The notes under the pieces are model-generated. The model did no database searches and was not told where the DNA came from. It saw nothing but the letters and a program-made list of their open reading frames with translations. 32,565 bases of DNA from the NCBI GenBank assembly GCA_029211065.1, contig JARGFK010000050.1, positions 1 through 32,565 of the forward strand, given 5' to 3'. The translations under genes were made by a program, and so were the position numbers. Source of the DNA: Desulfobacterales bacterium (GTDB lineage Bacteria > Desulfobacterota > Desulfobacteria > Desulfobacterales > JARGFK01). Below are positions 4,406 through 32,565 of this stretch, in pieces (the first letter of the stretch is position 1; each line of letters opens with the position of its first letter).

Positions 4406-4497
4406 TAAATAATTTATATTTTTTTCAATTTATCTATAATAAGGCAGCGGATCGGAAAACCTGCGGGTTGTTGGTAATGGACGAAAGAAGAGAAAGT

Positions 4498-5460: not shown

Positions 5461-5614
5461 GGCAAATAGCAGACGCCTTGCATGGCCGGACCGTATTGCC
5501 GGTGAATCGCAATGTATAATTTATAGAGAGATGAGTTTGGGGTGTGGACGGAACAAGGCTTTATTCACTTTGATAAGACGTCGGGCAATGGTAACCGTGG
5601 TATTCCATTTTTTT

Positions 5615-12044: not shown

Positions 12045-12053
12045 ATGGACACC

Positions 12054-17644: not shown

Positions 17645-17653
17645 GGAGTTACG

Positions 17654-19048
17654 ATGAAAATTGAAATCAAGATACCCAGTGTGGGGGAGTCCGTAAAAGA
17701 AGCGGTTCTGGTTGAGTGGTTTAAAAAAAACGGCGACTCCGTCCAGAAGGACGAACCGCTTTTCTTGATCGAAACCGATAAGGTTACCCTGGAGGTTGCG
17801 GCCGAAGCCGATGGTGTGTTGGAGATTAAGGTTTCCGAGGGTAAAACCGTCGCAATCGGCGCGGTGGTGGGAACCATCGATACCCAGGCTGCGGCTGCCA
17901 AGGGCAAAAAAGCGGCAGCCGCCGAAAAAGCGAAACCGATTGACAAAGCCCCCGAAACAGAACCCGACGAACCCGCCCCCAAACCGGCGGTAAAACAGGA
18001 AACGCCGGCGCCCGAAAAAAAAGCTGCTAAACAGCCGGAACCGCCACCGGAAGAGAGCGCTGCTAAACAGCCGGAATCGCCGGAACCTCCTCCGGCCCCG
18101 GTTGAGGATCGTGCCGAAGCAGCCCCGGCCTTGCCCCCGTCGGTGCGCCGGCTGGTAGCCGAAAAAAACATTGACGTTGCCCGCATCAGCGGAACCGGGC
18201 CCGGCGCAAGAATTACCAAGGGAGATGTGCTGCTGTATCTGGAAAGGGCCGAAAGCGGAGGTGCTGCAAAAACAGTGGACGCGACCCCGTCCCAAAAAGC
18301 TGCGACGCCCGAAACAAAACCTGCGCCGGCAGCCTCCGGCGGGGCTGAAGAAGCCGTCAGCCGCAAACCCATGAGCCCGATCCGCCGGCGCATTGCCGCC
18401 CGATTGCTGGAAGCCAAGCAGGGTACGGCCATGCTGACCACTTTCAACGATATCGACATGACCCGGGTCATGCAGGTCCGGGCGCTGCTGAAGGAAAAAT
18501 TCAAAGAAAAATACGGCGTGCCCCTGGGATTCATGTCTTTTTTCATCAAGGCGACCCTCGAAGCATTAAAAGATTTCCCGGAAATTAACGCCGCCATCGA
18601 CGGCGACGATATTGTGTATCATCATTACCATCATATCGGTATTGCCATCGGCTCCGACAGGGGCCTGGTGGTGCCGGTGATCCGTCATGCCGACCGGCTC
18701 GGCTTTGCCGAACTGGAGGGCGCCATTGTCGAATTCGTCAAAAAAATCAACGAAAAACGCCTGGAACTGGCCGATCTGGAAGGCGGCACATTCACCATCA
18801 GCAACGGCGGCATATACGGATCCCTGCTGAGCACCCCCATTTTGAACATGCCCCAGAGCGGGATCCTGGGCATGCACCGGATCGAGGACCGGCCGGTTGC
18901 CCGTGACGGCAAGGTGGAGAACCGCCCCATGATGTATGTTGCCCTGAGCTATGACCACCGCATTGTTGACGGCCGGGAAGCCGTCATCTTCTTAAAACGC
19001 ATCAAGGAATGCGTTGAAAACCCGGAACTGATCATGATGGAGATTTAA
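17654..19048 (+). CDS. sucB: Dihydrolipoyl succinyltransferase, E2 of 2-oxoglutarate dehydrogenase
   Basis: 464 residues, longer than the usual about 400 because of an extended linker. The lipoyl domain (1-75) has the lipoylation site K43 in ETDKVTLEV. A long Ala/Pro/Lys/Glu linker (about 78-155) contains an exact 18-bp direct repeat (18023-18040 and 18059-18076) encoding AAKQPE. The E1/E3-binding domain is PPSVRRLVAEKNIDVARISG (about 158-177). The catalytic domain includes HHIGIAIGSDRGLVVPVI and the active-site SYDHRIVDG (H435, D439). A second low-complexity linker separates these two domains. It starts 9 nt after sucA, with AAGGAG before the ATG, and lpd follows after 2 nt. Confidence 0.95.
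   Translation: MKIEIKIPSVGESVKEAVLVEWFKKNGDSVQKDEPLFLIETDKVTLEVAAEADGVLEIKVSEGKTVAIGAVVGTIDTQAAAAKGKKAAAAEKAKPIDKAPETEPDEPAPKPAVKQETPAPEKKAAKQPEPPPEESAAKQPESPEPPPAPVEDRAEAAPALPPSVRRLVAEKNIDVARISGTGPGARITKGDVLLYLERAESGGAAKTVDATPSQKAATPETKPAPAASGGAEEAVSRKPMSPIRRRIAARLLEAKQGTAMLTTFNDIDMTRVMQVRALLKEKFKEKYGVPLGFMSFFIKATLEALKDFPEINAAIDGDDIVYHHYHHIGIAIGSDRGLVVPVIRHADRLGFAELEGAIVEFVKKINEKRLELADLEGGTFTISNGGIYGSLLSTPILNMPQSGILGMHRIEDRPVARDGKVENRPMMYVALSYDHRIVDGREAVIFLKRIKECVENPELIMMEI
18023..18076 (+). repeat. In-frame 18-bp direct repeat in the sucB linker
   Basis: GCTGCTAAACAGCCGGAA occurs at 18023-18040 and again at 18059-18076, offset by 36 nt (12 codons), so the linker peptide gains or loses a whole unit without a frameshift. 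This is a typical source of length variation in flexible E2 linkers. Confidence 0.8.
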
Positions 19049-19050
19049 AA

Positions 19051-20475
19051 ATGGCTCAAAAAACGACCTATGATCTCATTGTTATCGGCAGCGGACCCGG
19101 CGGCTACGTGGCGGCCGTGCGGGCGGCCCAGCTCGGATTGAAAGTCGCCTGCGTTGAAAAGGAACCCCGCCTGGGCGGCGTCTGCCTGAACGTCGGGTGT
19201 ATCCCCAGCAAAGCGCTGCTGGACTCCAGTGAATACTTTCACCTGGCCGGCAGTCACTTTGCCGACCACGGCATCAAAACCGGAAAACTGACCCTCGATC
19301 TTGCCGCCATGATGGCGCGCAAAGACCGGGTGGTAAAAGAGCTGACGGATAACATCCGCAAGCTGCTGGAGGGAAACAGCATCCCCATCATTCGCGGCAC
19401 GGCCCGGCTGGCGGGTAAGGACAAGGTGGCAATCGCCCCGGCATCCGCCAAGGGAAAATCCAGGGGCCAGACCCTGCAGGCAACGCATATCCTGCTGGCC
19501 ACCGGCAGCGAGCCCATCGCTCCCACCGGCTTAAAATTTGACGGAAAACGCATCGTCACCTCCACCGAAGCCCTTGCATTTAAAGAAGTGCCGAAACATC
19601 TCGGCATTGTCGGCGGGGGGTATATCGGCCTGGAACTCGGGTCGATCTGGCGGCGGCTGGGAAGCAAGGTGACCGTAATCGAAATGCTGTCGAAACCGGC
19701 CGCCGGCCTGGACGGACAGGTGGGGCGAACCCTCCAGCGCGTTCTGACCGCCCAGGGGCTCCACTTTCGTCTTAAAACCAAAGTGGCCGCAGCCAAAGCA
19801 GGCGCCAAGGGCGTAACCCTGACCCTTCAAACGGATGAAAAAAAAGAAACCCTCACGTGTGACCGGCTGCTGGTGGCGGTGGGCCGCCGTCCCCTGACCC
19901 GGGATCTCGGCCTGGAAGCGGCCGGCGTTAAAACCGATCCCAAAAGCGGCCACGTTATGGTGGATGCCTCCTGCCGCACCAGCATCCCTTCCATCTATGC
20001 CATCGGCGACCTGATCCCGGGGCCGATGCTGGCGCACAAGGCTTCGGCTGAAGGAATTGCCGCCGTTGAATGCATGGCCGGACGGGCCGGAGAAGTCAAC
20101 TACGATACGATCCCGGCCGTGATATACACCTGGCCGGAAGTGGCCAGCGTGGGGCTCACGGAAGAGCAGGTGAAATCGCGCGACATTCCCTACAGCACCG
20201 GATCGTATCCCTTTTCAGGGGCCGGCAGGGCCCGGGCCATGGGAGAATCCGAAGGGTTTGTCAAGCTCATCGCCCATGCCAAAACCGACCGGGTGCTGGG
20301 GGTGCACATCATCGGACCGCGTGCTGCCGACATGATTGCGGAATGCGTCCTGGCCATGGAATTCGGCGCCTCATCCGAAGATATCGCCCGCACCGTGCAC
20401 GGCCACCCCACCTTTGCCGAAGCCCTTCAGGAGGCGGCCATGGCCGTTCGCAAGTGTTCGATTTACGCGTCCTGA
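19051..20475 (+). CDS. lpdA: Dihydrolipoyl dehydrogenase (E3)
   Basis: 474 residues, the usual length. It reoxidises dihydrolipoamide on E2 and reduces NAD, using FAD and a disulfide. Elements in order: FAD-binding IGSGPGGYVAA (about residues 12-22), the redox-active disulfide GGVCLNVGCIPSK (C45, C50), the NAD-binding GGGYIGLELGSIW, the second FAD motif with AIGDLIPGPMLAHKA, and the C-terminal interface HGHPTFAEALQEA with the catalytic His-Glu pair. It is the last gene of the hydrolase-sucA-sucB-lpd operon. The 62-nt gap to the convergent bicupin gene shows no convincing terminator. Confidence 0.95.
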   Translation: MAQKTTYDLIVIGSGPGGYVAAVRAAQLGLKVACVEKEPRLGGVCLNVGCIPSKALLDSSEYFHLAGSHFADHGIKTGKLTLDLAAMMARKDRVVKELTDNIRKLLEGNSIPIIRGTARLAGKDKVAIAPASAKGKSRGQTLQATHILLATGSEPIAPTGLKFDGKRIVTSTEALAFKEVPKHLGIVGGGYIGLELGSIWRRLGSKVTVIEMLSKPAAGLDGQVGRTLQRVLTAQGLHFRLKTKVAAAKAGAKGVTLTLQTDEKKETLTCDRLLVAVGRRPLTRDLGLEAAGVKTDPKSGHVMVDASCRTSIPSIYAIGDLIPGPMLAHKASAEGIAAVECMAGRAGEVNYDTIPAVIYTWPEVASVGLTEEQVKSRDIPYSTGSYPFSGAGRARAMGESEGFVKLIAHAKTDRVLGVHIIGPRAADMIAECVLAMEFGASSEDIARTVHGHPTFAEALQEAAMAVRKCSIYAS

Positions 20476-20537
20476 ATTTTCAAAGCAAAATTGGCGAGAT
20501 TAACGAACGGGAAGGCAGATAGCCCTTTTCTCTCCTG

Positions 20538-21488
20538 CTATCGCCCGACGATATTCGCATAGGTGCTTCCGATTGTCGGAAACGTTCTTTTGGCAATGTC
20601 CTCAAAGAATTTCGATCGCATTCCGAATTCGATTCGCAGCATCACAGACTCACTGCTGCCGGTATTGAAGTGCTGGTGCATGGTGACGGGGCCCTGGACG
20701 TGCAATAGCGTACCCTTTTTCCAGGGCACTTTGACCTCGTCCACGATGGAATGCCCTTCTCCTTCGAGGATATAGACATGCGCTTCCATGTGGGCGTGTC
20801 GTTCCGGAGACTCCTGCGGTTCGTCGCACATGAGGGTGGTGATCTGGGCCTCGGTGGCCTCAAAGCCGACCCCCGGATAACCCATCAAATTGACCCTGCG
20901 CGCGTGAAAGTGATCCTTCTTGCGGTCTTCATCTGTAGCCAGCCGCTGGGGGGCATCCTTCATATGCAGCACCAGTCTGCCGAGTTTATTCGTGCTGATA
21001 CCGGATATCGGCCGGGGGTCCTTGGGCTCTCCCGGCTTTATCTGGGCCGCGTCTTCATACTGAACCAGCTTGGCAAGTCCCACGAATCGTTCCAGATGAA
21101 TGGCGTTGGCTGCAATGTACCGCACAGTTCCGCTGCCCGTATTGAAATGCTGGTGCACGGCGCCGAAGGGCATGAAAAGCGTGGATCCCTTTTCCCAGTC
21201 AAATCGCTCGCCGTCAATGACCGTGCACCCATTGCCTTCGATGATGAACATGACCTCCTCGCCATGGCTGTGTTTTCCCGTTTTCCACCCTTCCGGAATT
21301 TCCACCAGCATGGTTTGGCCCCCTTGGGTAACAAAACCATTGTCCGGCGAAGCCAATAAGGCGGTCCGTTTGTCCTGCCGGGTCTCGATCCATTCGAGCT
21401 CCTCCTCGTGAATCACCTTTGGCGCTTTGGCGCGCTCTGCTTCCGTTTCGTCCCAGAATTTAAGCCAGCGATCATAGAAATTTTCCAT
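20538..21488 (-). CDS. Bicupin protein at the end of the UbiD/TTT cluster
   Basis: 316 residues from the ATG at 21488, which has GAGGAG just upstream; a longer frame to 21572 lacks a site. Two cupin domains are visible. The first has GKHSHGEEVMFIIEGNG and later MPFGAVHQHFN. The second has ERHAHMEAHVYILEGEG and VTMHQHFNTGS. Both keep the His-rich metal-binding pattern. The fold resembles the gentisate-dioxygenase-type bicupins, but the neighbouring genes look anaerobic, so isomerase, lyase or sensing roles are equally possible. The ERFDWEKG segment resembles ERYDWEQG in the single cupin at 28050-28619, which suggests shared ancestry. It lies 194 nt downstream of tctB-1; I see no clear promoter in that gap. 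Fold firm, reaction unknown. Confidence 0.75.
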   Translation of the reverse strand: MENFYDRWLKFWDETEAERAKAPKVIHEEELEWIETRQDKRTALLASPDNGFVTQGGQTMLVEIPEGWKTGKHSHGEEVMFIIEGNGCTVIDGERFDWEKGSTLFMPFGAVHQHFNTGSGTVRYIAANAIHLERFVGLAKLVQYEDAAQIKPGEPKDPRPISGISTNKLGRLVLHMKDAPQRLATDEDRKKDHFHARRVNLMGYPGVGFEATEAQITTLMCDEPQESPERHAHMEAHVYILEGEGHSIVDEVKVPWKKGTLLHVQGPVTMHQHFNTGSSESVMLRIEFGMRSKFFEDIAKRTFPTIGSTYANIVGR

Positions 21489-21682
21489 CGTTTTCTCCTC
21501 TTCTAAGTCATTGAATGTTCTTGTTCTTGAATTTGGTTTTATCTGTAATATTAAGATGTCCGGCTCATACAAATTTCAATGCATAACAGCAAACATATTC
21601 TCTATAATCCTTATACTGACAAGCTTTTGCGGCGGCAGAGAGTTATCGGTGCGGGTATAAACCAAAATTTAGCATTTATTCT

Positions 21683-22186
21683 TTAACCACTTAAAAAAAA
21701 TCCTTTATATAGCGGAATGGATAGCACTTTTATGAAGATGATGTACATTACCAGCATGGTTCCCAATGGCAGACTCAGGGATAATTTCCACCCTTGTGCA
21801 TATCTGAATTTCAGGAAAATAAAAATAAACAGAGGCAGGCCCACCATGATGCCCGCCAGCATAATCAACATCACTGCGACACCCAGCCATAAAAATATTT
21901 CGAGTTCCTTACGGCTTCTTTCGGCATCGTCCGATTCGATATTCTTCTTAGCCTTCCGGCCCCTACTTGAAATATTTTCTGCATCAAGGCCGCCCAATTC
22001 TGAATATTTCCTTGATAGGTTCGGAAAAAAATCCAGCAGCGCTTGAAATCCCGTAAGCAGAACCATCGGAATCCCGACTATCAGGGGGAAAATTCTAGGC
22101 GTTCGGCTGTAGTTCATTCCGATCAGGACATAGCCGACTGTTATGATGAATAAAAAAATATTTAATAACCTTCCGCCGTATTTCAT
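21683..22186 (-). CDS. TTT transporter small membrane subunit, TctB type (copy 1)
   Basis: 167 residues from the ATG at 22186, preferred over the TTG at 22192 because GAGGT lies 9 nt upstream of the ATG. Four hydrophobic segments are visible: near the N-terminus (LLNIFLFIITVGYVLIG), residues about 30-50 (PLIVGIPMVLLTGF), 100-130 and the C-terminus. A charged loop (SRGRKAKKNIESDDAERS) sits in the middle, the usual TctB layout. It partners the TctA directly upstream (6 nt gap) and the TctC beyond that. Sequence conservation in TctB is low, so the call relies on topology, length and position. Confidence 0.8.
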   Translation of the reverse strand: MKYGGRLLNIFLFIITVGYVLIGMNYSRTPRIFPLIVGIPMVLLTGFQALLDFFPNLSRKYSELGGLDAENISSRGRKAKKNIESDDAERSRKELEIFLWLGVAVMLIMLAGIMVGLPLFIFIFLKFRYAQGWKLSLSLPLGTMLVMYIIFIKVLSIPLYKGFFLSG

Positions 22187-22192
22187 GGTCAA

Positions 22193-23668
22193 TTACCTCG
22201 TTTTCATCTTTCGGAATAAGACCGGCGCGATCATGGTCAACATAATGATAATAATCAATATCATACAGATCGGGCGCATAAAAAATAACCACCCATAGAG
22301 TTTGATGGACATATGCAGGTATCTCTCAACGATGGTTCCAAGAACGATTCCGATGATCAGCGGCGCCCGGGAATAACCGTTTCTTTTCAACATATAACCC
22401 AGAAATCCAAATCCCACCGCCAGAAAAATATTTTCAATCTCATTGCCGTCCACATACGAACCGACCAGACAAACCGTGGTGATCATGGGCACCAGGATAT
22501 ACACCGGCAGAAATGTAAGCCGGGCAATGGGGCCGCAAAACGCCAGGCCGATGAGGGTGGTCAGCACATTTGAAATCGCCAGGACACTTGCCAGGGCAAA
22601 GGTATAATTCAGCTTAGTGGTCAGCATTTCAGGACCGGGCACCAAGCCCAGCATAACAAAAACGCCGAGCAGGATAGCCATGCCGGCGCTACCGGGGATC
22701 CCAAAGGCAACCGTTGGAATCAAAGCGCCGCCTTCTTTTGAATTGTTGGCGCTTTCCGGCGCCAGGATGCCGTCTACCGCACCCTGGCCGAACATGTCTT
22801 TTTCTTTCGAAGTCTTGGCGGCAAGACCGTAAGCTGCCAGGTTGGAAACCGTCCCTCCCAAGCCCGGTACAATCCCGATCAGTGTTCCCAGTGCACTGCA
22901 CTGCAACAGCACCGGCCAGTGACTAACAGTATCTTTGATTCCCTGCCAGATCAGGCGCCATTGTGAATCGCCCATTTCCACATCTGAAATGCTTGAACCC
23001 TTTGCCATGAGCATGGCAAGCTCGGGAAAGGCAAAAAGTCCCACAACAACCGGAATTAACGGAACACCATCCCAGAGGACCAGTTGCCCGAAAGTATAAC
23101 GGGGAATGCTGGTGATGGGATCAAGTCCCACAAGGGACAGCATCAATCCCAGCCCCCCCGCAATTAACGCTTTAATGAGTGAGCCTCCTCCTAAAACGAC
23201 AATAAAGGCAAGTCCCACAAATGCCATAATAAAATATTCCGGAGAAGACAGCGCCATGAGCAGGATTCGCATAACCGGAATCGATGCCACCAGTACCACG
23301 AAACCAAAGAGGCCGCCAACGGCGGAGCTGGTGGCGGCGATGCTCAGTGCCCGGGCGGCCTCTCCTCTTTTGGCCATCGGGTACCCGTCCCAGCAGGTAG
23401 CGATGGCCTGTCCGGTTCCCGGTGTATTGATAAGAATGGCGCTGATGGAACCGCCATATTCGACGGCAACGTGTGCGCCTAACAACAGACTCATGGCCGT
23501 TGCTGGATTCATACCGATAACAAACGGAATTAAGACAGCCAGGGAGGTCTGCCCTGAAAGACCGGGTATGGAGCCAAAAACAATTCCGACCAATATTCCC
23601 ATAGTCATAAACAGCATGTTTTTCATGGTGAGTATCATCATCAGCCCGTCAAAGGCAGCATCTATCAT
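22193..23668 (-). CDS. TTT transporter large membrane subunit, TctA type (copy 1)
   Basis: 491 residues, the normal size, with about 11-12 hydrophobic segments. The family signature GGSISAILINTPGTGQ is near residues 73-88, and AYGLAAKTSKEKDMFGQG with PESANNSKEGGALIPT lies in the middle of the protein, both typical of TctA. It forms the ion-driven permease for a carboxylate delivered by TctC. AAGGAGAGG precedes the ATG at 23668. It sits between tctC-1 (67-nt gap) and tctB-1. It is clearly paralogous to the TctA at 25411-26880, yet not a recent duplicate, since many positions differ. Confidence 0.92.
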   Translation of the reverse strand: MIDAAFDGLMMILTMKNMLFMTMGILVGIVFGSIPGLSGQTSLAVLIPFVIGMNPATAMSLLLGAHVAVEYGGSISAILINTPGTGQAIATCWDGYPMAKRGEAARALSIAATSSAVGGLFGFVVLVASIPVMRILLMALSSPEYFIMAFVGLAFIVVLGGGSLIKALIAGGLGLMLSLVGLDPITSIPRYTFGQLVLWDGVPLIPVVVGLFAFPELAMLMAKGSSISDVEMGDSQWRLIWQGIKDTVSHWPVLLQCSALGTLIGIVPGLGGTVSNLAAYGLAAKTSKEKDMFGQGAVDGILAPESANNSKEGGALIPTVAFGIPGSAGMAILLGVFVMLGLVPGPEMLTTKLNYTFALASVLAISNVLTTLIGLAFCGPIARLTFLPVYILVPMITTVCLVGSYVDGNEIENIFLAVGFGFLGYMLKRNGYSRAPLIIGIVLGTIVERYLHMSIKLYGWLFFMRPICMILIIIIMLTMIAPVLFRKMKTR

Positions 23669-23735
23669 GAACCCTCTCCTTTACATCGCCTAAACGGTTT
23701 CCAGTCCCAACCGCAAGAGGTATAGATATGGTATA

Positions 23736-24761
23736 TTATTTTGATATTTTGCGTAATTCACGTACTTTTGGCGCAAGTAACCCTTCTGTTGAAAAGATGT
23801 CATTTACCAATTTTTCCAGCTTTTCCCCGCCCAAATAATTTATAGTCCGCTTATTTTTTTCAAGCATTTTTTGAAAATCGGGATCATTGACCGTTTTTTG
23901 ATAGGCCTCCCGGAGAACAGCCAGTCGCTCCGCCGGAACACCCGGCGGCGCAAAAATAACCCGGTCAATCTCAAATGAATAGGATAGCGCTTTTGCGATA
24001 TCCTTTGCTTCTTGAGATGTTGCAAGTTCCAGGGCCGTCGGCACATCCGGCATTTCAGGGCTGCGGGTATCTCCCACAACCATAATCGGCTTCAAATCTC
24101 CTGATTTGAATAAAGGCAGGATGGAACCGACGCTGACCTGAACCCCGTCGACCTCACCCTTGACAGCGGCAAGATTTGCCTCGCGGGAACCGGTATAGCC
24201 CGTCACCGGATCAATTTCCAGTCCCAATAATTTTCCCATTATTAGAGAAGCAAAATAGTCATCGCTGCCGACACCTGAAAAACCGAGTGTTATCGCCCTG
24301 CCGGCATTTTTTAAATCGTCAAGACTCTTAAAGGGTTTTGTACCACTTGTAGCCATAACATGTTCTTCAAATGCGACTCTTCCGACCCAGGTCAGTTTGG
24401 AAATATCGTATTTAACCCCCTCGATCCCGCTCCACTGGGCAAACAACATCCCCGAGCCGGTCGTAAGGCAGATCGTCCGACCGTCAGGCTTTGAAGCCCA
24501 CAATTGATTGCGTCCCCTGAGGCCACCGGCGCCGGTCACATTGTTGATGACCACGTTTATTCCCGGGATGTGTTTTTTAAAATACGGCGCGAACATCCGG
24601 GCATAGGTATCAAATCCACCGCCGGGACCGTGGGGAACGATTATTTCAACGGTCTTGCCATTGAAAAACGCATAATCCGGGGCTGCTGCCAATGCAGCCG
24701 CCACACTAAAAACAACCCATACAAAAATGAGTGCCGATATACCAGTGATTCGCTTTTTCAT
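23736..24761 (-). CDS. TTT substrate-binding protein, TctC/Bug family (copy 1)
   Basis: 341 residues. It has a signal peptide (KKRITGISALIFVWVV, ending near AALAAAPD). The mature domain starts with FFNGKTVEIIVPHGPGGGFD, the Bug/TctC carboxylate-pinning loop. Further on are NNVTGAGGLRG and FSGVGSDDYFA, typical of the two-lobed periplasmic binding fold. It binds the substrate outside the membrane and delivers it to TctA/B. GAGGGACA precedes the ATG. It lies 110 nt after tctB-2. Bug proteins bind mono-, di- and tricarboxylates, aromatic acids and others; the ligand cannot be read from sequence. Confidence 0.9.
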   Translation of the reverse strand: MKKRITGISALIFVWVVFSVAAALAAAPDYAFFNGKTVEIIVPHGPGGGFDTYARMFAPYFKKHIPGINVVINNVTGAGGLRGRNQLWASKPDGRTICLTTGSGMLFAQWSGIEGVKYDISKLTWVGRVAFEEHVMATSGTKPFKSLDDLKNAGRAITLGFSGVGSDDYFASLIMGKLLGLEIDPVTGYTGSREANLAAVKGEVDGVQVSVGSILPLFKSGDLKPIMVVGDTRSPEMPDVPTALELATSQEAKDIAKALSYSFEIDRVIFAPPGVPAERLAVLREAYQKTVNDPDFQKMLEKNKRTINYLGGEKLEKLVNDIFSTEGLLAPKVRELRKISK

Positions 24762-24871
24762 TGTCCCTCCTTCTTAAAAATAAGTATAGCTCCGTCCAAT
24801 ATAGGCACCGAGACCTTTGTAAAAAATCATTTTGCTCATTTGTAGTGCCGGGCTTAAAATTTAATCTCAAA

Positions 24872-25414
24872 CTATCGGCCCAGAATTAAAATAAAAAGAT
24901 ACCCCTTATACAAAAACACATTCAATAAAACTTCAAACCCGAAATGCATGACAACCGCGATGCCTGCGGCTGAAAGCAGTGAAAAACGCCAGCCGGCCAT
25001 GGCCCGATATTTAAGAAAAATCCCGACCAGTAGCGAGAGCGACAATAAAAAGCCAAATAAAAAAATAGTCCCGCTGAAAAGGAGGACCCAAAGAAACATC
25101 TCCTGAACAGACAGGGCCCCAACGGTCCGGGCGGCATCTTTTTCGCTGTCGTCTTTTTTTTCAGACAAACCGGTTTTTTTTTGTTTGATTAAATCGGCGC
25201 TGAAGAACTCTCTTTTTTTGTTTAGAAATGAAAATTTGGCTGCAAATCTCGGCAAGCTGCTGATTAACTGCAAACCGATAAAAATCATCCCGGCGATGCC
25301 GACCATGAGCGGAACCAGACGGGCCGTTGGACTGTATGGCAGGCTCAGCGCCACAAACCCGGCAATAATCAGCAAGATGAAGCATCCAAAAATAAATTCG
25401 CCCCTATTCTTCAT
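24872..25414 (-). CDS. TTT transporter small membrane subunit, TctB type (copy 2)
   Basis: 180 residues from the ATG at 25414, which overlaps the TctA stop as ATGA and has AGGAGG upstream. A longer frame to 25513 is not needed. Four membrane segments are visible (FIFGCFILLIIAGFVALSL; LVPLMVGIAGMIFIGL; about 107-145; the C-terminus). A long charged loop, KREFFSADLIKQKKTG and following, sits in the middle. The overlap shows coupled translation with its TctA. Confidence 0.8.
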   Translation of the reverse strand: MKNRGEFIFGCFILLIIAGFVALSLPYSPTARLVPLMVGIAGMIFIGLQLISSLPRFAAKFSFLNKKREFFSADLIKQKKTGLSEKKDDSEKDAARTVGALSVQEMFLWVLLFSGTIFLFGFLLSLSLLVGIFLKYRAMAGWRFSLLSAAGIAVVMHFGFEVLLNVFLYKGYLFILILGR

Positions 25415-26880
25415 GCCGGCCTCCTGTTTGATTTTCGGATAAAGGGAAGGACGGCGACGGCCGCGAGCAGCACAAGTAAGACCATGGTCAGCGGCCGGGT
25501 GAGAAAATCCCAACCGAAAAGCTGAATGGCCAGATGAAAATTTTTCTCAACGATATTTCCCAAAACCAGACCGATGATGAGAGGGCCCCGGGGATACCCG
25601 TATATTTTCATGCCATAGCCAAAAAAACCCATGATAACCGTCATCAAAACATCCAGCATGAGGCCGTTGCTGCTGTATGATCCCAGCAGCGCCACGGCAA
25701 TGATAAAAGGCGCCATCAGCGAAAATCGCACCATGGTCAGCCGGGTCAGTTTTCTGGCAATCGACAGACCGATCACGGCGCCCATGATACCGCCCAGCAC
25801 GATCATCCAGACCAGCGAAAAGAGAAACGGCAACTGCTCATTGAGCATTTTGGGGCCCGGTTGCATCCCCTGAATTAAAAAGGCGCCCAGTAAAATGGCC
25901 ATGGTCTCGCTGCCCGGAACGCCAAAAGCGATGGTTGGGATAAGGGCGCCGCCGTCTTTGGCGTCATTGGCGGTTTCAGCCGCAATGACGCCCTCGATTA
26001 CACCGGTGCCGAACTTTTCGGGATGTTTGGAAGTTGAAACAGCATGCGAGTATGAAACGATATTGGCAACAGCGCCGCCGGCCCCGGGGATGACACCAAT
26101 GACTGTGCCGATGACGGCGCAGCGAACCATGAGAAACCAGTGCGTAAAAACAGCTCTAACCCCTTTTAAAACCCCGGTAGCCGTTTTGGGAATTTCTTTT
26201 TCCGAAATCGCGCCGCCCTGGCTGGCAAGATGGATGACTTCCCCGATGGCGAACAGTCCGACGATCATCGGAATCAGGTCCACCCCTTCCCACAGATAGA
26301 GTGTGCCCAGGGTATATCTTAAATCGCCGGAAACCGGATCAAATCCCACAAAAGAAAGCAAAAGCCCCAGAATTCCGGCGGTCAGCCCCTTTAGAAAAGA
26401 GCCTTTGCTGATGGAGGCAATCGATGTCAATCCGAATATGCACACTACAAACAGTTCGGGAGGACCGAACAGCATCACGACCCTGCGCATCACCGGTATC
26501 AGCAACGCCAGAATAAACGCGCCGACAATGCTGCCCATGGCCGAAGATGCGGCCGAAGCCCCCAGCGCTTCGCCGGCGCGTCCTTGCTGGGTCAGCGGGT
26601 ACCCGTCAAATGTGGTTGCAACATTCTGACCGGTGCCGGGAGTGTTAATCAGAATGGCGCTGATGGACCCGCCGAACATCACTGCGCTGTGACCGCCCAC
26701 TAGAAGGGCAAATGCCGAAACCGGATCCATGGTATAGGTTAAAGGGATCAGAATGGCATAGGCCACCGGCCCGCTTAGCCCCGGCATGGCGCCAAAGCCC
26801 AGAAACAGCATCACCCCGGCCGCCAGATAAAAAAGGCTGGTGGGATTCATTAATAAAAGGAACCCCTCTATCAGTGCCAT
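25411..26880 (-). CDS. TTT transporter large membrane subunit, TctA type (copy 2)
   Basis: 489 residues with the full TctA layout. The signature GGSISAILINTPGTGQ appears near residues 70-85 and AYAILIPLTYTMDPVSAFAL in the first helix region. VIPGAGGAVANIVSYSHAVS and ETANDAKDGGALIPTIAFG lie in the second half. AGGAG lies 8 nt before the ATG at 26880. It follows tctC-2 after a 108-nt gap that contains TTGTCAATA (26956-26964), and overlaps tctB-2 by 4 nt. It is a paralogue of the copy at 22193-23668. Confidence 0.92.
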   Translation of the reverse strand: MALIEGFLLLMNPTSLFYLAAGVMLFLGFGAMPGLSGPVAYAILIPLTYTMDPVSAFALLVGGHSAVMFGGSISAILINTPGTGQNVATTFDGYPLTQQGRAGEALGASAASSAMGSIVGAFILALLIPVMRRVVMLFGPPELFVVCIFGLTSIASISKGSFLKGLTAGILGLLLSFVGFDPVSGDLRYTLGTLYLWEGVDLIPMIVGLFAIGEVIHLASQGGAISEKEIPKTATGVLKGVRAVFTHWFLMVRCAVIGTVIGVIPGAGGAVANIVSYSHAVSTSKHPEKFGTGVIEGVIAAETANDAKDGGALIPTIAFGVPGSETMAILLGAFLIQGMQPGPKMLNEQLPFLFSLVWMIVLGGIMGAVIGLSIARKLTRLTMVRFSLMAPFIIAVALLGSYSSNGLMLDVLMTVIMGFFGYGMKIYGYPRGPLIIGLVLGNIVEKNFHLAIQLFGWDFLTRPLTMVLLVLLAAVAVLPFIRKSNRRPA

Positions 26881-26988
26881 CTGTCAACTCCTGTCCGTTA
26901 TTGAATCCAACGAAAATCCGTAAGCGAAAACAACCGTGAATGAATCCGCTCTATCTTGTCAATAGGGTCTGTAGGAATCTGAACGCTT

Positions 26989-28011
26989 TTACTTGGCGGC
27001 TTCCTTCAGAACAGGCTTGATTTTTTCCGCTGCGGTCATGCATGTCTGCATCAGGGCGGTCATCTGTTCACCCTTCATGGCATTGACCGGCCGGCCCCGC
27101 TTTTCCAGTTCTTGAATGATGTCTTTATCGGAGAATACTCCCCATACGGCTTCCCTGAGCAGTTTGACCCTGTCGGCAGAAACACCCGGCGGCGTACAGA
27201 ATGCACGGCCGAACTCAAACGTATTGGTGATCGCCGTCATAATATCTTTTTTATCCGGCGGAGCAATCTCGATTGCCAGGGGGACATCTTTAAACCGCGG
27301 GTCTCTTTCCAGGGCAACCTGCAGGATCGGTATAACATCGCCGGAATCAATCAGGTTCAGCAGGCTGCCGACTGTTGACTGGGTACCGTCCACATCCCCT
27401 TTGACGACAACCAGATTGGTTTCACTGGTGCCGCCGAACCCCACCACCTGACGCAACTTGAATCCCAGGGCATCGGCAATAACGGCCGCCGCCAGAAAAT
27501 CGTCACTTCCTTTGCCAGTTGCAGAAAAGACCACCGTGCGGTTTGCTTCCATCAGATCCTTAATCGATCGGAATGGAGATTTCTTGCCGACGGCAATGAT
27601 ATGCGGTTCGGCGTCTGAGCGTCCCAGCCATTCGATTTTACCCAGGTCGTATTTTACGCCCGGGGTTTCCATGACCTGATTGAATATCATCCCGCCGCCG
27701 TTGATAATGCCGATGGTCAACCCATCGGTGGGAGCCACATAGAGCGAATTCGTGCCGGTCATCCCGCCCGCCCCTTTGATATTTTTAACAATCGCCGTTT
27801 TAATCGGCAGAAAGCGGGAAATATGCTGGGCAAGGCTTCTGGCATAAACATCAAAGCCGCCCCCGACACCGTATGGGCAGTAAATTTCGAGAACCTTGTT
27901 ATTATAAAATTCTCTGGCATCTTCTGCATATCCTGCGGTTAAAGAAATAAACACCCAGGAAATTGCCAACAGGACAAACAACAGTCTTTTCGTTATTTTC
28001 GCTTGTTTCAT
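26989..28011 (-). CDS. TTT substrate-binding protein, TctC/Bug family (copy 2)
   Basis: 340 residues. It has a signal peptide (MKQAKITKRLLFVLLAISWV, ending near TAGYAED). The mature part begins FYNNKVLEIYCPYGVGGGFD, which differs from the VPHGPGGGFD of copy 1 in the ligand loop, so the two may bind different acids. NIKGAGGMTGTNSLY and FSATGKGSDDFLAA follow the family pattern. AAAGGAGG lies 6 nt before the ATG. It follows the single cupin after 38 nt and is probably co-transcribed with the ubiD group. Confidence 0.9.
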   Translation of the reverse strand: MKQAKITKRLLFVLLAISWVFISLTAGYAEDAREFYNNKVLEIYCPYGVGGGFDVYARSLAQHISRFLPIKTAIVKNIKGAGGMTGTNSLYVAPTDGLTIGIINGGGMIFNQVMETPGVKYDLGKIEWLGRSDAEPHIIAVGKKSPFRSIKDLMEANRTVVFSATGKGSDDFLAAAVIADALGFKLRQVVGFGGTSETNLVVVKGDVDGTQSTVGSLLNLIDSGDVIPILQVALERDPRFKDVPLAIEIAPPDKKDIMTAITNTFEFGRAFCTPPGVSADRVKLLREAVWGVFSDKDIIQELEKRGRPVNAMKGEQMTALMQTCMTAAEKIKPVLKEAAK

Positions 28012-28049
28012 CTCAACCTCCTTTGGTTATCTATAATTTGGAACAACTT

Positions 28050-28619
28050 CTAAAGGTACTTAAATCCCTCTCCGTTCTTCACCCCCCCCTCCGGCGTAAT
28101 TGAAACCCAGGAGTACGGGGACGGCTCAATGGTTTTGAGCTCTTTTTCATATTCTTCCTGGGTGACGTTTTTACCCACCTCAATCCAGCGGTCCAAGCCC
28201 AGAAAGTTCAGCAGCCGCTTATTGGTAATCCCCAGATAAATGACCCGGTCCGGTCCTTCATTCACGTGGGAATGCCAGTTCATGGTCGGCATGTAAAGGG
28301 CGTCACCCTGCTCCCAGTCATAACGCTCGCCCTGAACAATGGAATAGCCTTTCCCCTCCAGAATAAATACCAGCGCTTCGTTGTGGTGCTTATGCATCCG
28401 GGAGCTTTTTCCGGGGACCAGTTCCGACAGATGAATATTAATGGTGCGCATGGGCAGATCGATATCCCGGCTGCGGTGCTTGCGCTCCTTGCAGTCGTAC
28501 ATGTCCTTTAAGGGGCTTTTCTGAACAATATTCTTGACCAGTATCGGCCGGACAACTTCTTCATGGCGATGAATCTTGCCGGTTTCCCGCGGATTGATAT
28601 CATTTTTGTCTTCCGTCAT
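28050..28619 (-). CDS. Single-domain cupin protein next to ubiD
   Basis: 189 residues with one cupin core. Motif 1 is HKHHNEALVFILEGKGYSIV (residues about 77-96) and motif 2 is MPTMNWHSHVNEG (about 109-121). The metal-binding His pattern is kept. An N-terminal polar region of about 60 residues, including MYDCKERKHRSRD, precedes the core, and a C-terminal tail follows. GGAGGGA precedes the ATG. It lies between the small zinc-ribbon gene and tctC-2. The segment ERYDWEQGDALYMP resembles ERFDWEKGSTLFMP of the bicupin at 20538-21488. Function unknown; such cupins often accompany decarboxylase loci, which is inference. Confidence 0.75.
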   Translation of the reverse strand: MTEDKNDINPRETGKIHRHEEVVRPILVKNIVQKSPLKDMYDCKERKHRSRDIDLPMRTINIHLSELVPGKSSRMHKHHNEALVFILEGKGYSIVQGERYDWEQGDALYMPTMNWHSHVNEGPDRVIYLGITNKRLLNFLGLDRWIEVGKNVTQEEYEKELKTIEPSPYSWVSITPEGGVKNGEGFKYL

Positions 28620-28694
28620 AAATCCCTCCGGATCTGCTAAGTAGTTAAAATAAAATATGAATCCTTAGAGCCGCCTTGATGCTGCGTCCCTTGC

Positions 28695-28850
28695 TTACTC
28701 GCTGTCTATGACTTCTTTTGCTTCCTTGTCCAGAAACCTGGCCCCGCAAAAGGGGCATAACAATTTCCGTTCTTTTAATCTAAAATCATCTTTTGACGCA
28801 TAAAACTTCCGCCCGCATTCGGGGCATGCAATCCAAAATATTTTGGCCAT
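28695..28850 (-). CDS. 51-residue zinc-ribbon protein encoded next to ubiD
   Basis: 51 residues: two CxxC knuckles, CPEC (9-12) and CPFC (32-35), separated by 19 residues rich in Lys/Arg/Asp, and an acidic tail ending KEVIDSE. It starts at the ATG at 28850 with AGGAG about 10 nt upstream, 13 nt after the ubiD stop, and is followed by the cupin after 75 nt. Known hydroxyarylic acid decarboxylases of the UbiD type have a small third subunit, BsdD/VdcD (about 75 residues), that also carries cysteine pairs; position and size suggest this could be an analogous partner. That is inference: a general zinc-ribbon regulatory protein is also possible. The coding status is good given the knuckles, the start site and the tight spacing. 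Confidence 0.75.
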   Translation of the reverse strand: MAKIFWIACPECGRKFYASKDDFRLKERKLLCPFCGARFLDKEAKEVIDSE

Positions 28851-28863
28851 AATTTCTTCACTC

Positions 28864-30261
28864 CTATGGTAGATAGTCTTTAAGATCGATGCGCTTCATA
28901 ATCTCTGCCGGAATATTGATTCGTTCCGAAAACGGGCGGGTCACCGGTCGGGTGGCATCGACAATCATCTTGCCGCCCACGGCATGCTTAACCGCGGAAG
29001 GATCCAGTGTCCCTCCCCGGGCATTTTTGATAATGTTGATATCCAGGTCCGGCTGAACGCGGGTTGCCATCGCCCACATCACTTCACGCTCATTAAACGG
29101 GTCGACATCGTCGTCTACCACGATAACATGTTTCAGTTCATCATGATGCGGAAAGGCCGCCATGCCGGCAACGATCCCTTCACCATCAACTCTCTGCTGA
29201 AGGGAAATATAGGCGTGAAATCGACAGCATCCGGAAATGGGGAAATGAACCCCTTTGACACCGGGCACGGCCCGCTTGATTTCTTCATAAATGCCGGCCT
29301 CCTTGGGAATACCTCCCAAAATGGCCGTATCGGCGTGCCCAACCAGAATGTTCAGATAAATGGGATTTTTTCGGTGGGTAATGGCGGTTATCTTTACCGA
29401 CGGCGACCAGCGCTGTGGTCCGTAATAGCCTGTAAACTCCCCAAAGGGACCTTCGGCGTCCCGCTGGTTGGGTAAAATCTCCCCTTCAACGATCACTTCG
29501 GCATCGGCCGGCACCAGTAACCGTTCGCCGTATGTTTCGGAAGGGACCAGTCTTAAGGGTTCTCCGATGATGCCGCCGATGGTCTCATACTCGTCAATCT
29601 CCATGGAACTGATGGCTTCCGAACCCAGATAAAACCCGGGATGGTGTCCCAGGACATGGGCGATCGGCAAAGCCTCGCCTTTTTCCTGGGCCCGCATGTA
29701 GTAGTTCCATAAATGTCGCGGCGACATCCATATCCGCGATTCGGTCTTGCCGGCAACGATCATGCGATGATGCGATGAGTTATAGTTTTTCCCGGTATCC
29801 GGGTCCGCCGCCACCACGGCATCGGGCAAATAGGGGTAGCCGTCCATCTCATGGTGCGTTACCACCGGCAGGTCCCTTAAATCGACGGCATCTCCAGTGA
29901 TAATCACCTCTTTTACGGGGGCATCGGCCCGGCCGACCATGACCGGTTTAATCGGCTTTAAGGACCTTTCTGCAAACTTAAAGCTGGTCTCCATGCGCCA
30001 CTGGTCCTTGTCCAGTCCCAGCGCAACAGCACAAAACTGGCGCATGGCAAAAATATTTGTTGCCACCTTAAATCCACTCTTCTTCCCCTTAACGTTTTTA
30101 ACATTTTCAAAAACGAGAAGGGGAAACCGGCCTTCATTTTCAAGTTTTTGTTGAATCGCCGTTATTTCAAATTTTGGATTAACCTCCTTTTTTATAACGA
30201 CACACTCTTCCGGCATTGCCGCCTGCAGCTCATGAATGAAAGTTCGCAAATCCTTTGCCAT
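28864..30261 (-). CDS. UbiD-family prenylated-FMN decarboxylase
   Basis: 465 residues. It non-oxidatively decarboxylates, or in some members carboxylates, an aromatic or unsaturated acid using prenylated FMN. Aligned by eye to the family, N161, H183 and E234 would bind the metal and cofactor phosphate. R166 (in SSHHRMIV), E270 and E275 (in EGPFGEFTGYYG) match the catalytic Arg-Glu-Glu. The N-terminus DLRTFIHEL is typical. It heads the ten-gene minus-strand run, from a candidate promoter at 30445-30474. The prFMN synthase UbiX is not in the window and must be supplied from elsewhere. The substrate is unknown, and the two TTT transporters suggest an imported carboxylate. Confidence 0.9.
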   Translation of the reverse strand: MAKDLRTFIHELQAAMPEECVVIKKEVNPKFEITAIQQKLENEGRFPLLVFENVKNVKGKKSGFKVATNIFAMRQFCAVALGLDKDQWRMETSFKFAERSLKPIKPVMVGRADAPVKEVIITGDAVDLRDLPVVTHHEMDGYPYLPDAVVAADPDTGKNYNSSHHRMIVAGKTESRIWMSPRHLWNYYMRAQEKGEALPIAHVLGHHPGFYLGSEAISSMEIDEYETIGGIIGEPLRLVPSETYGERLLVPADAEVIVEGEILPNQRDAEGPFGEFTGYYGPQRWSPSVKITAITHRKNPIYLNILVGHADTAILGGIPKEAGIYEEIKRAVPGVKGVHFPISGCCRFHAYISLQQRVDGEGIVAGMAAFPHHDELKHVIVVDDDVDPFNEREVMWAMATRVQPDLDINIIKNARGGTLDPSAVKHAVGGKMIVDATRPVTRPFSERINIPAEIMKRIDLKDYLP

Positions 30262-30340
30262 AAAGCGTTCCTTTCTAATATAAACAGAATATTGCCGAAT
30301 CTAGTATCCGGTTTGCCCCAGCGAATTAATTTCCGCGCAT

Positions 30341-30358
30341 GGCGTCAGTGACGACGCC
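30341..30358. repeat. Perfect inverted repeat in the ubiD upstream region
   Basis: GGCGTC and GACGCC flank AGTGAC. It lies in the 5' leader expected for ubiD, about 80 nt before its ATG, and could be a small hairpin or operator. Nothing else shows between 30262 and 30425. Confidence 0.35.
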
Positions 30359-30425
30359 TAATTCTAATTGGCGGCAATAAACCGGAACTGACATAATTGC
30401 CTGTTGAACATTGCGCATAAACTTT

Positions 30426-30454
30426 TTGCCAATGTTTTTTTGACTTTCTACGAT
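30426..30454 (+). promoter_or_regulatory. Candidate promoter for the ThDP-enzyme operon
   Basis: TTGCCA (30426-30431), a 17-nt spacer and TACGAT (30449-30454) point at the ThDP enzyme gene. Predicted start near 30461, so the palindrome CTATTG-T-CAATAG (30465-30477) would begin about five bases into the transcript, a normal repressor position. Leader to the ATG at 30606 about 145 nt. Confidence 0.45.
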
Positions 30455-30474
30455 TAGAACGGAGCTATTGTCAA
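30445..30474 (-). promoter_or_regulatory. Candidate promoter for the ubiD operon, overlapping the divergent one
   Basis: On the minus strand, TTGACA (30469-30474) and TAGAAA (30445-30450) are separated by 18 nt. The -35 lies inside the palindrome, and the two -10 boxes overlap, so one regulator could switch both operons. The predicted leader to the ubiD ATG at 30261 is about 175 nt. Confidence 0.45.
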
Positions 30475-30477
30475 TAG
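30465..30477. promoter_or_regulatory. 13-bp palindromic operator candidate
   Basis: CTATTG-T-CAATAG is perfectly symmetric. Its core TTGTCAATA recurs at 4399-4407 in the amidohydrolase-gntR promoter and at 26956-26964 before tctA-2, all at catabolic genes. A GntR/FCD-type site is possible. Confidence 0.45.
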
Positions 30478-30605
30478 TTGTGTATAAAAGGTTGCATGCT
30501 GTTGACCATGATCGAATGCAGGCATCGTAAAAGATTCCTGTATATTTGTGATTTCGGATGATGTATATAAAAAATTTATTTGCAATGGAAGATAAGGGAA
30601 TAATA

Positions 30606-32324
30606 ATGAACGGCGCAGAGGTTATTATACAGCTATTTAAGGAATATCAGGTTGATGTGATCTTCGGGGTTCCCGGAGATACCAGCATCAAACTTTACGA
30701 AGCGCTATACAATGCCGGCTCCGCAATCCGCCATGTCATGGCCAGGGATGAGCGTTCAGCTTCTTTTATGGCGGATGTTTACGCACGCCTTTCGCATAAA
30801 CCCGGTATTTGTGAATGCCCCAGCGGCGCCGGCGCCCTCTATTCCGTGCCGGGTGTGGCCGAGGCAAATGCGAGTTCAATACCCGTTATTCTGATTACCT
30901 CTGACATCCCACTGTCCGGCGAAGGGAAAAAAACGATCACGGAACTGGATACCCAAAGCCTTTTCGAGTCTATCACCAAATGGTCCAGTATCGTTAAACA
31001 ATCGGAAAAAATTCCGGAAACGCTTCGGCGCGCTTTTAGAATCGCCACCACCGGGCGTCCGGGCGCAGTGCATCTTGCCTTCCCGCAGGAGGTGCTTAAC
31101 GGAGTATTTTCCGGTAAGGCCGAAACCATATATAGTGAAAAAGAATGCCGCGGTTATCCGGCATACCGCAGCCGCGGGAGTCGGAAGGTTTTGGAAGAAT
31201 TAACCCTGCACCTGCAAGGTGCCTTACGCCCGGTTATAGTTGTCGGCGGCGGCGCAAATCATTCCCAGGCCGGCAAAGAGATTATCAGCCTTTCGGAATG
31301 GCTTCAAGCCCCGGTGGTAACAACGATATCCGGGCAGGGAATTATGCCCGACGATCATCCCCTGGCGTTAGGGGTTATCGGCGATAATGGATTCCATCCC
31401 CATGCCAACCGGGCGGTGGAAGAAGGCGATGTGCTGCTCTATATCGGTTGTAAAATGGGGTCGGTATCAACCATCAAATGGACACTGCCCTCATATAAAG
31501 CTGATCGAAAAATATTGCAGATCGATCTGGATCCGGAATTATTATCCAATAATTTCAAGAACACCTTGAGTGTGGCCGGGGATGCACGTCTGGTTTTGGA
31601 AGACCTGTTGACGCTGCTTCAGGCCCACGTAGGAATCCGAAAACCTACCTCTTGGGTAAATGATCTTAACCGTTCACGGGCCCAATTCTGGAAAGAGTCT
31701 GAACAATTATTCCACTCCGAGGCTTTACCCATCAAACCGCACAGGGTTATTGCCGCTCTGAACAAAAGGCTGCCGTCGCCCGCCATTGTCATCGCCGACG
31801 CAGGCACGCCGACCCCTTATATTACCCGCTTTTTGAAATTGGGCGGAAATGGCTCCCGGTTTATTATTCCCCGGGCCTATGGTGGTCTTGGCTATGCCAT
31901 TCCGGCCATGGTGGGAGCGCATATGGCCCGGCCGGAAGCAAGCCTGGTGGGGCTGTTCGGCGACGGGAGCCTGGGAATGTCTGCGGGCGAGCTGGAAACA
32001 CTGGTGCGGCTGAAAACGCCGGCGGTACTGATTCATTTTAATAATGGCTCTTTTGGCTGGATAAAGGCGCTGCAGGCCCTTCACGCCGACAGCAAGTTTT
32101 TTTCCGTTGACTTTACGGCCGGACAACCGAGCCGGGTGGCGGAAGGATTCGGCATGAAAGCCTTTCATGTAAACACCCCTGCAGAACTGGACGATAAACT
32201 CGACGCCGCGTTTAGCAGCGACGGGCCTGTTTTTCTTGACGTTGTAACGGAATCAGAAGTAAAAGAACTGCCGCCGGTGCATTCCTGGAACCAGGCCGCT
32301 ATAAAATTCGGCAAATCGATATGA
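30606..32324 (+). CDS. ThDP-dependent enzyme of the acetolactate synthase/benzoylformate decarboxylase superfamily
   Basis: 572 residues from the ATG at 30606, with AAGGG 7 nt upstream; the in-frame ATG at 30558 has no site. Three domains are expected. The N-terminal pyrimidine domain has FGVPGDTSIKLYEAL and the cofactor Glu E49 in RDERSASFMAD. The central domain has VGGGANHSQAGKE. The C-terminal pyrophosphate domain has GDGSLGM...NN (about 452-480). It may decarboxylate or ligate a 2-oxoacid, or cleave a C-C bond; acetolactate synthase itself usually has a small regulatory subunit, which is absent here, so a catabolic role is more likely. It is divergent from ubiD and precedes an FAD oxidoreductase by 32 nt. 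Confidence 0.82.
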   Translation: MNGAEVIIQLFKEYQVDVIFGVPGDTSIKLYEALYNAGSAIRHVMARDERSASFMADVYARLSHKPGICECPSGAGALYSVPGVAEANASSIPVILITSDIPLSGEGKKTITELDTQSLFESITKWSSIVKQSEKIPETLRRAFRIATTGRPGAVHLAFPQEVLNGVFSGKAETIYSEKECRGYPAYRSRGSRKVLEELTLHLQGALRPVIVVGGGANHSQAGKEIISLSEWLQAPVVTTISGQGIMPDDHPLALGVIGDNGFHPHANRAVEEGDVLLYIGCKMGSVSTIKWTLPSYKADRKILQIDLDPELLSNNFKNTLSVAGDARLVLEDLLTLLQAHVGIRKPTSWVNDLNRSRAQFWKESEQLFHSEALPIKPHRVIAALNKRLPSPAIVIADAGTPTPYITRFLKLGGNGSRFIIPRAYGGLGYAIPAMVGAHMARPEASLVGLFGDGSLGMSAGELETLVRLKTPAVLIHFNNGSFGWIKALQALHADSKFFSVDFTAGQPSRVAEGFGMKAFHVNTPAELDDKLDAAFSSDGPVFLDVVTESEVKELPPVHSWNQAAIKFGKSI

Positions 32325-32356
32325 CAGGTCTTTTTTAAACAAGGAGAATGAATTCA

Positions 32357-32565
32357 ATGAAAGTCATCATCGTGGGCGGGGGGTGGGCCGGCTGTGCGGC
32401 AGCCCTTTCAGCCCAAAAGCAAGGGGCCCGGGTTGTTTTGATCGAACGGACCGACATGCTGCTGGGGACCGGCCTTGTGGGCGGCATCATGCGCAACAAC
32501 GGCCGCTACACGGCCGCAGAGGAAATGATCGCCATGGGCGGCGGCGAGATCTTTCAACTGACCGA
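32357..32565 (+). CDS. FAD-dependent oxidoreductase, N-terminal fragment (continues beyond window)
   Basis: 69 residues are present before the window ends. It opens MKVIIVGGGWAGCAAALSA, an FAD-binding Rossmann motif of the GxGxxG type (GGGWAGCAA), then VVLIERTDMLLGTG and VGGIMRNNGRYTA. The pattern resembles the fumarate-reductase-like and GidA/TrmFO-related flavoproteins. AAGGAG lies 10 nt before the ATG. It follows the ThDP enzyme by 32 nt, so the two form a divergent operon opposite ubiD. Too little is visible to name a substrate. Confidence 0.75.
   Translation, partial: MKVIIVGGGWAGCAAALSAQKQGARVVLIERTDMLLGTGLVGGIMRNNGRYTAAEEMIAMGGGEIFQLT

Follow-up and report, generated by a model that had tools for sequence, protein, structure and literature searches.

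A UbiD-family decarboxylase gene paired with a 51-residue zinc ribbon gene among variable neighbours in a Desulfobacterales genome

The vanillate/4-hydroxybenzoate decarboxylase VdcC-VdcD of Sedimentibacter and Bacillus is a two-protein system in which VdcC, a UbiD-family enzyme, shows little or no activity alone, and the small zinc ribbon VdcD, which has two CXXC pairs, touches those loops of VdcC on which the E-R-E residues lie (PMC8379154). Other small proteins that aid UbiD enzymes are LpdD, a chaperone of reduced prenylated flavin mononucleotide (prFMNH2), and the maturase PhdC (PMC10865409, PMC13040415); VdcD and LpdD are reported to lack sequence similarity (PMC8379154), and for some UbiDs the active holo-enzyme is hard to obtain (PMC10865409). 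A further solved member of the family is the 2,5-furandicarboxylate decarboxylase HmfF (6h6v/6h6x; for 6h6x, PMC8988006). In anaerobic phthalate clusters a UbiD-type enzyme, phthaloyl-coenzyme A (CoA) decarboxylase, is encoded with UbiX and near an acid importer, a TAXI-type tripartite ATP-independent periplasmic (TAXI-TRAP) transporter (PMC13040137). Here we analyse a locus with likenesses to all of these on contig JARGFK010000050.1 of a Desulfobacterales bacterium (GCA_029211065.1). The window is this complete contig, C50, of 32,565 bases, and gene positions are given in its coordinates. At the centre of the locus stand two genes:

28864..30261, minus strand: UbiD-family prFMN decarboxylase, 465 amino acids (Pfam UbiD, UbiD_N and UbiD_C)
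28695..28850, minus strand: zinc ribbon, 51 amino acids, CPxC-X19-CPxC (pairing with UbiD; invariant cysteines)

As in VdcC-VdcD, a UbiD is combined with a small ribbon bearing two CXXC pairs, which is encoded beside it, here 13 bases downstream. Because the gene pairing is the same, a VdcCD-like arrangement is suggested for the window pair. The proteins themselves differ: the cysteines lie at positions 3, 6, 28 and 31 in ShVdcD and at 9, 12, 32 and 35 in the window ribbon, which lacks the proline-rich tail, and the window UbiD is closer to HmfF than to VdcC and falls far under the VdcC family cut-off.

That ubiD and the 51-residue ribbon form a conserved pair is the firm finding of this analysis. 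A ribbon profile, whose 19-sequence seed came largely from the same loci, was searched over 80 loci with a related UbiD, taken from other genome records; UbiDs were scored if 700 downstream bases were available or a ribbon was in view, and a ribbon was counted when it lay at most 700 bases away on the same strand. It accompanies 34 of the 41 UbiDs with at least 44.5% identity to the window enzyme, 7/31 at 36–44.5% and 1/39 below 36%; when only UbiDs with 700 downstream bases are considered, the counts are 31/38, 6/30 and 1/39. Several cases in the middle class have one ribbon common to tandem UbiDs. Since these loci were picked by UbiD similarity, they cannot reveal ribbons without a UbiD, which a search of 395 same-phylum genomes can. 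There, 13 ribbon matches (E ≤ 1e-9) were found in seven genomes, with at most 17 ribbon and at most four UbiD candidates scored per genome, two of each contributed by the window genome, and with some genomes possibly also present in the 80-locus set. All 13 adjoin a ubiD of 36–100% identity, the seven genomes all belong to the 12 that have a UbiD at E ≤ 1e-90, and a ribbon lies near 18 of the 22 UbiD matches at this threshold.

The same selectivity is seen within the window genome, where two of 15 UbiDs have a ribbon, namely the window UbiD and a paralogue on contig C9 that is 89% identical to it. The 13 remaining UbiDs, at 30–34% identity, have none within 700 bases (0/13), and the stretches surrounding them gave no ribbon match at E < 0.01. 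Among 57 other genomes of the same order, each from a different family, none has a UbiD at E ≤ 1e-120.

Two loci of other genomes show variations of the pair. L023:10001-13309 holds tandem UbiDs (71% and 38% identical to the window UbiD) with a separate zinc ribbon after each of them; the second ribbon is longer (72 amino acids). L029 comes from the complete chromosome of a named strain, Candidatus Formimonas warabiya DCMF, and there the ribbon belongs to the same gene run as ubiD, 3.9 kb upstream of it; three hydroxylase-type genes of the molybdenum cofactor (MoCo) class stand between the two, and split subunits of a thiamine diphosphate (ThDP) enzyme stand beside the ribbon (L029:4815-11398).

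In 21 aligned ribbon sequences C9, C12, C32 and C35 are invariant. These four residues make up two CPxC pairs, which fits zinc binding. An AlphaFold model based on 18 sequences reached a mean predicted local distance difference test score (pLDDT) of 78.6 and a predicted template modelling score (pTM) of 0.54. We found no description of a UbiD-associated ribbon family in the literature searched, which covered few subscription journals, and the gene seems to have been without a name so far. From the pairing and its VdcD precedent we infer that the ribbon is a subunit of the UbiD.

The window UbiD scores above the curated cut-off for all three UbiD Pfam domains (182.5, 127.3 and 56.3 bits). By sequence, its closest solved relative is 6h6x (E 1.2e-90), which we take to be HmfF, followed by VdcC 7ae4 (E 1.6e-61); phthaloyl-CoA decarboxylase (Pcd; 8oz5, E 2.9e-27) is a distant UbiD, and the window locus has no CoA transferase or ligase gene. 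Against the VdcC family NF041204 the enzyme scores 307.9 bits, under the cut-off of 650. The catalytic E-R-E residues are kept, also among the UbiDs of at least 44.5% identity, where the arginine is found in 43 of 44 (one gap) and each glutamate in 44/44. R304 of HmfF, a pocket arginine near the furan-specificity histidine, aligns to lysine in the window UbiD and in 43 of these 44. The second pocket difference concerns the furan-specificity histidine of HmfF, H297 (PMC7976604), which is counted as H296 on the chain and is taken as the same residue. Its counterpart is threonine in the window UbiD, and threonine (23) or asparagine (17) in 40 of the 44; asparagine occupies the same pocket position in the pyrrole-2-carboxylate decarboxylase PA0254 (PMC7976604). 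With these two differences in the pocket, furandicarboxylate is improbable as the substrate, and some other heteroaromatic acid is possible.

A tree of 130 UbiDs was examined under midpoint rooting and with VdcC as the root. In the midpoint-rooted tree the clade that fares best by ribbon count contains 24 UbiDs with a ribbon, five without and two undecided (support 0.975), and the other 18 ribbon-bearing UbiDs lie outside it; a wider clade comprises 41 with and 27 without a ribbon (support 0.387). We also considered a single gain of the ribbon, which this tree does not demonstrate. The ten nearest homologues from outside the genome, in a search that may omit very near genomes, are 62–78% identical and all stem from records labelled Bacillota or its orders or families. 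They and both window-genome copies form a group of 12 tips (support 0.999). HmfF lies outside this group, within the wide ribbon-bearing span, at a distance of 1.79 from its nearest tip. UbiDs of the 395 same-phylum genomes are at most 45% identical, the genome's own two excepted, and it is reasonable to read the window UbiD as horizontally transferred.

The prFMN cofactor would have to come from elsewhere in the genome. Two PF02441 matches were found, one in a 198-residue frame among UbiDs on contig C16 (C16:12380-12886) and one in a 399-residue frame (C1:142831); by size and place we read the former as UbiX and the latter as a different protein. The LpdD-like family PF21758 (our interpretation of the match) has no match in the window genome. 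Among the ten Firmicute-type loci, UbiX occurs in five, an LpdD-like gene in three and an AsnC/Lrp-type regulator in seven; no such gene was detected in the window cluster.

Around the pair the locus comprises ten further genes, of which eight continue the minus-strand run. For two full sets, the TctA, TctB and TctC families lie above the Pfam cut-off, which identifies two tripartite tricarboxylate transporters (TTT). The ThDP and flavin adenine dinucleotide (FAD) genes are divergent:

28050..28619, minus strand: single-domain cupin (Cupin_2)
26989..28011, minus strand: TctC solute-binding protein 1 (PF03401)
25411..26880, minus strand: TctA membrane protein 1 (PF01970)
24872..25414, minus strand: TctB membrane protein 1 (PF07331)
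23736..24761, minus strand: TctC solute-binding protein 2, 40% identical to TctC 1 (PF03401)
22193..23668, minus strand: TctA membrane protein 2, 43% identical to TctA 1 (PF01970)
21683..22192, minus strand: TctB membrane protein 2, 33% identical to TctB 1 (PF07331)
20538..21488, minus strand: two-domain cupin, or bicupin (Cupin_2 in two stretches)
30558..32324, plus strand: ThDP enzyme, acetolactate synthase-like superfamily; uncertain as a member of the system (TPP_enzyme N, M and C)
32357..32565, plus strand: beginning of a GidA-like FAD oxidoreductase, truncated by the contig end; uncertain as a member of the system (93% identical to a copy on contig C3)

An earlier note on this DNA had listed ten minus-strand genes in the order ubiD, zinc ribbon, cupin, tctC, tctA, tctB, tctC, tctA, tctB, bicupin, facing a ThDP and an FAD gene. 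All twelve are present in that order, with intergenic distances, from ubiD to the bicupin, of 13, 75, 38, 108, -4, 110, 67, 0 and 194 bases. The bidirectional promoter that it placed between ubiD and the ThDP gene found no backing, as both promoter-like matches wholly inside that gap are on the plus strand. The scans themselves are uninformative: 16 promoter-like matches in 20400-32565 compare with 13.8 ± 3.6 in shuffled sequences, and 24 terminator matches with 16.2 ± 3.8.

The interpretation that we favour, at a probability of about 0.58, is that the locus encodes a two-protein prFMN decarboxylase like VdcC-VdcD, fed by TTT import and provided with cofactor by UbiX from C16. The substrate, which is probably an aromatic or heteroaromatic acid bearing at least one carboxylate, would enter through one or both TTT systems, and the UbiD with bound prFMN, supplied by the C16-encoded UbiX, would remove a carboxylate without oxygen or CoA, with the ribbon as its dedicated activating subunit. 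The cupins probably belong to the same pathway, because their relatives adjoin other UbiDs in the window genome; should the cell be anaerobic, they seem unlikely to act as oxygenases. Further along the pathway, a 2-oxo acid or a reduced product may be handled by the enzymes of the divergent ThDP and FAD genes.

Several observations weigh against this proposal. VdcD is absent from the best 60 of 91 PDB sequences and from the first 25 of 61 NCBIfam families matched by the ribbon profile, and Foldseek with the ribbon model gave no match at E ≤ 0.001 (best E 0.15), the matches being mostly ribosomal ribbons and too weak to judge homology to VdcD. Seven close UbiDs have no adjacent ribbon (L029, L035, L039, two in L044, L046 and L060), nor do four of the 22 in the 395-genome search have one nearby. 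When the tree is rooted with VdcC, the smallest clade holding all 42 ribbon-bearing UbiDs has 94 tips with HmfF inside, and thus the ribbon marks no tidy single clade; HmfF is active, with no such subunit mentioned in the text consulted on it. In the window cluster no CoA ligase, regulator or UbiX gene was found, and most of the 43 close loci, defined by a UbiD at or above 44.5% identity and some with short flanks, show neither TTT nor cupin genes.

The neighbours of the pair bear on an alternative that we consider unlikely, in which ubiD and the ribbon are the sole unit and the cupins, the two TTT systems, the ThDP and the FAD gene are separately acquired modules that lie together by chance, the genome having many genes of these kinds. 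The importers beside close UbiD homologues indeed vary: TTT in L023, an SBP_bac_5 ATP-binding cassette (ABC) system in L026, an NMT1-type ABC system in L027, a major facilitator superfamily (MFS) protein on C9, and TAXI-TRAP (interpreted from NMT1_3 and DctM) in L022, L024, L025, L028 and L029. All four known classes of phthalate importer, MFS, TTT, ABC and TAXI-TRAP (PMC13040137), occur beside this UbiD group, a point in favour of the main proposal. BLAST found TctC in three and TctA in one of the 43 close loci. A MoCo hydroxylase large subunit, a gene type known from the Hmf pathway, is matched in 12 and an adenosine monophosphate (AMP) ligase in six. The 89% UbiD paralogue on C9 stands in other surroundings, with the zinc ribbon, an isochorismatase-domain protein and the MFS protein as neighbours; the 20 kb read there contain nothing that matches the cupins or the TTT proteins. 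In addition, ubiD, the cupin and the FAD gene all recur as near copies on other contigs, and TctA has 28 matches in the genome.

Separate acquisition sits less well with the short gaps on one strand and with runs of UbiD, ribbon and TTT genes in two other genomes (L023 and L168). The window TctA proteins are 49–50% identical to that of L023, compared with 42–47% to two UbiD-linked TctA proteins of their own genome. Within 10 kb of a UbiD lie five of the 28 TctA genes (expected 0.96), and, without C50, 3/26 (expected 0.83, p 0.049), with 2/26 within 5 kb (p 0.1); TctA genes are thus mildly enriched near UbiDs, with the significance of this and the following proximity counts overstated, as the tests assume independent genes.

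The window genome has six genes like the single cupin (E ≤ 1e-12), five of them within 10 kb of a UbiD. Without C50, three of four lie within 10 kb (expected 0.13), and three of four also within 5 kb (expected 0.08), which argues against separate modules; the fourth is on C21, where there is no UbiD. C113 has the order cupin, cupin, ubiD, tctC, tctA, tctB (tctB by eye) and C16 the order cupin, cupin, ubiD. A 98% identical copy of the window cupin is found on C20 (L121:9501-10079), between a UbiD and MoCo-type genes; as a side observation, this copy makes modules seem duplicated and reshuffled within the genome. Across the 43 close loci BLAST detected the single cupin in one and the bicupin in none.

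The bicupin weakly matches the gentisate dioxygenase 3bu7 (E 9.6e-10) and has HxH in both domains of the alignment. Gentisate 1,2-dioxygenase was considered and dropped, as bicupin (22.0 bits) and cupin (46.9 bits) miss the NCBIfam equivalog cut-off of 442.1. In the 395 same-phylum genomes the bicupin has five matches, all in one other genome; its neighbours there are aldolase and MoCo genes (by eye), and at four of the five sites the stretches read contain no match to the window TTT proteins. No paper that treats a UbiD with tripartite tricarboxylate and cupin genes was found in the literature searched, which covered few subscription journals.

Taken together, the UbiD-ribbon pair appears to be surrounded by interchangeable parts, namely importers, cupins and redox genes. 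The earlier note had suggested that the genes could work together as one system and had itself named freely varying neighbours as the sign against it; in the 43 close loci the neighbours do vary. Its gene catalogue is right, and the reading as one fixed system is supported in part only. The co-occurrence that it proposed to look for in related genomes exists for the UbiD-ribbon pair, for TTT genes after the pair in L023 and L168, and for cupin with UbiD in the genome itself. In other genomes the importer beside the pair varies, and cupin, ThDP and FAD genes seldom accompany it.

The pathway that the note had envisaged, in which UbiD, the ThDP enzyme and the FAD protein act one after another on imported acids, is improbable. 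A FAD homologue does lie upstream of ubiD in L026, the split ThDP subunits of L029 are near ribbon and ubiD (below the BLAST threshold of the 43-locus count), and three of nine ThDP matches over the Pfam cut-off in the window genome are within 10 kb of a UbiD. The single parallels in L026 and L029 contrast with BLAST counts of one close locus in 43 for each gene (ThDP at 24% identity), and the ThDP proximity outside C50 (2/8) comes from C16 alone. NCBIfam and PDB searches place the ThDP enzyme in its broad superfamily only; the PDB neighbours are unspecific, and no NCBIfam cut-off is reached among the 25 of 54 matches listed. The FAD fragment consists of the first 69 codons and is 93% identical to the start of an intact paralogue on C3 (L106:9185-10462). 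The start of contig C40 (L105:1-891) matches residues 128-423 of that paralogue (91% over 296 residues) and is probably the continuation of the cut gene, since both pieces match the same C3 copy; C40 goes on with an aldo/keto-reductase-like gene (by eye). The assembly probably broke at the end of the window because the FAD copies on C50/C40 and C3 are nearly identical.

We rate somewhat lower again the idea that the ribbon is a regulator or an RNA- or DNA-binding protein and no enzyme subunit. Its profile matches are general zinc ribbons and fingers, and the fold matches described above are mostly ribosomal and none of them significant; against this reading stand the position beside ubiD in many lineages and the VdcD precedent.

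Besides the sole UbiX-like gene of the genome, C16 (59 kb; L119, L120 and L127) carries six UbiDs and two cupins, as well as three matches to TctA and four to ThDP enzymes, and the contig looks like a large region for anaerobic aromatic carboxylation or decarboxylation. That the window UbiD is a carboxylase which uses CO2 to activate an aromatic compound, in the way suggested for naphthalene, is very improbable: UbiD chemistry is reversible, and the UbiDs and UbiX of C16 recall the naphthalene carboxylase cluster with its four UbiD-like subunits (PMC12016498), but the locus has importers of the kind used for acids and the nearest solved relative, HmfF, is a decarboxylase.

Elsewhere in the window, 4430-5512 contains an MFS-type gene (by eye) whose longest frame begins mid-protein and is overlapped by same-strand frames; there may be a break or a frame shift in the 5′ part of the gene. 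At 11187-13745 and 14915-20475, close together, are genes that look by eye like those of a 2-oxoacid:ferredoxin oxidoreductase and of a 2-oxoglutarate dehydrogenase complex.

Beyond this locus, and tentatively, at slightly less than even odds, many UbiDs in several phyla, which are not VdcC by cut-off and have a pocket unlike that of HmfF, may possess their own ribbon subunit that is not recognisable as VdcD; ribbons would then have been recruited more than once, and cupins would be a recurrent partner in some anaerobes. A conserved, unnamed gene beside a large group of uncharacterised UbiDs is a protein to co-express with them. If the ribbon activates its enzyme as VdcD does, the pair would show whether this solution is wider, and the importers, which change beside a single enzyme pair, can help in guessing substrates.

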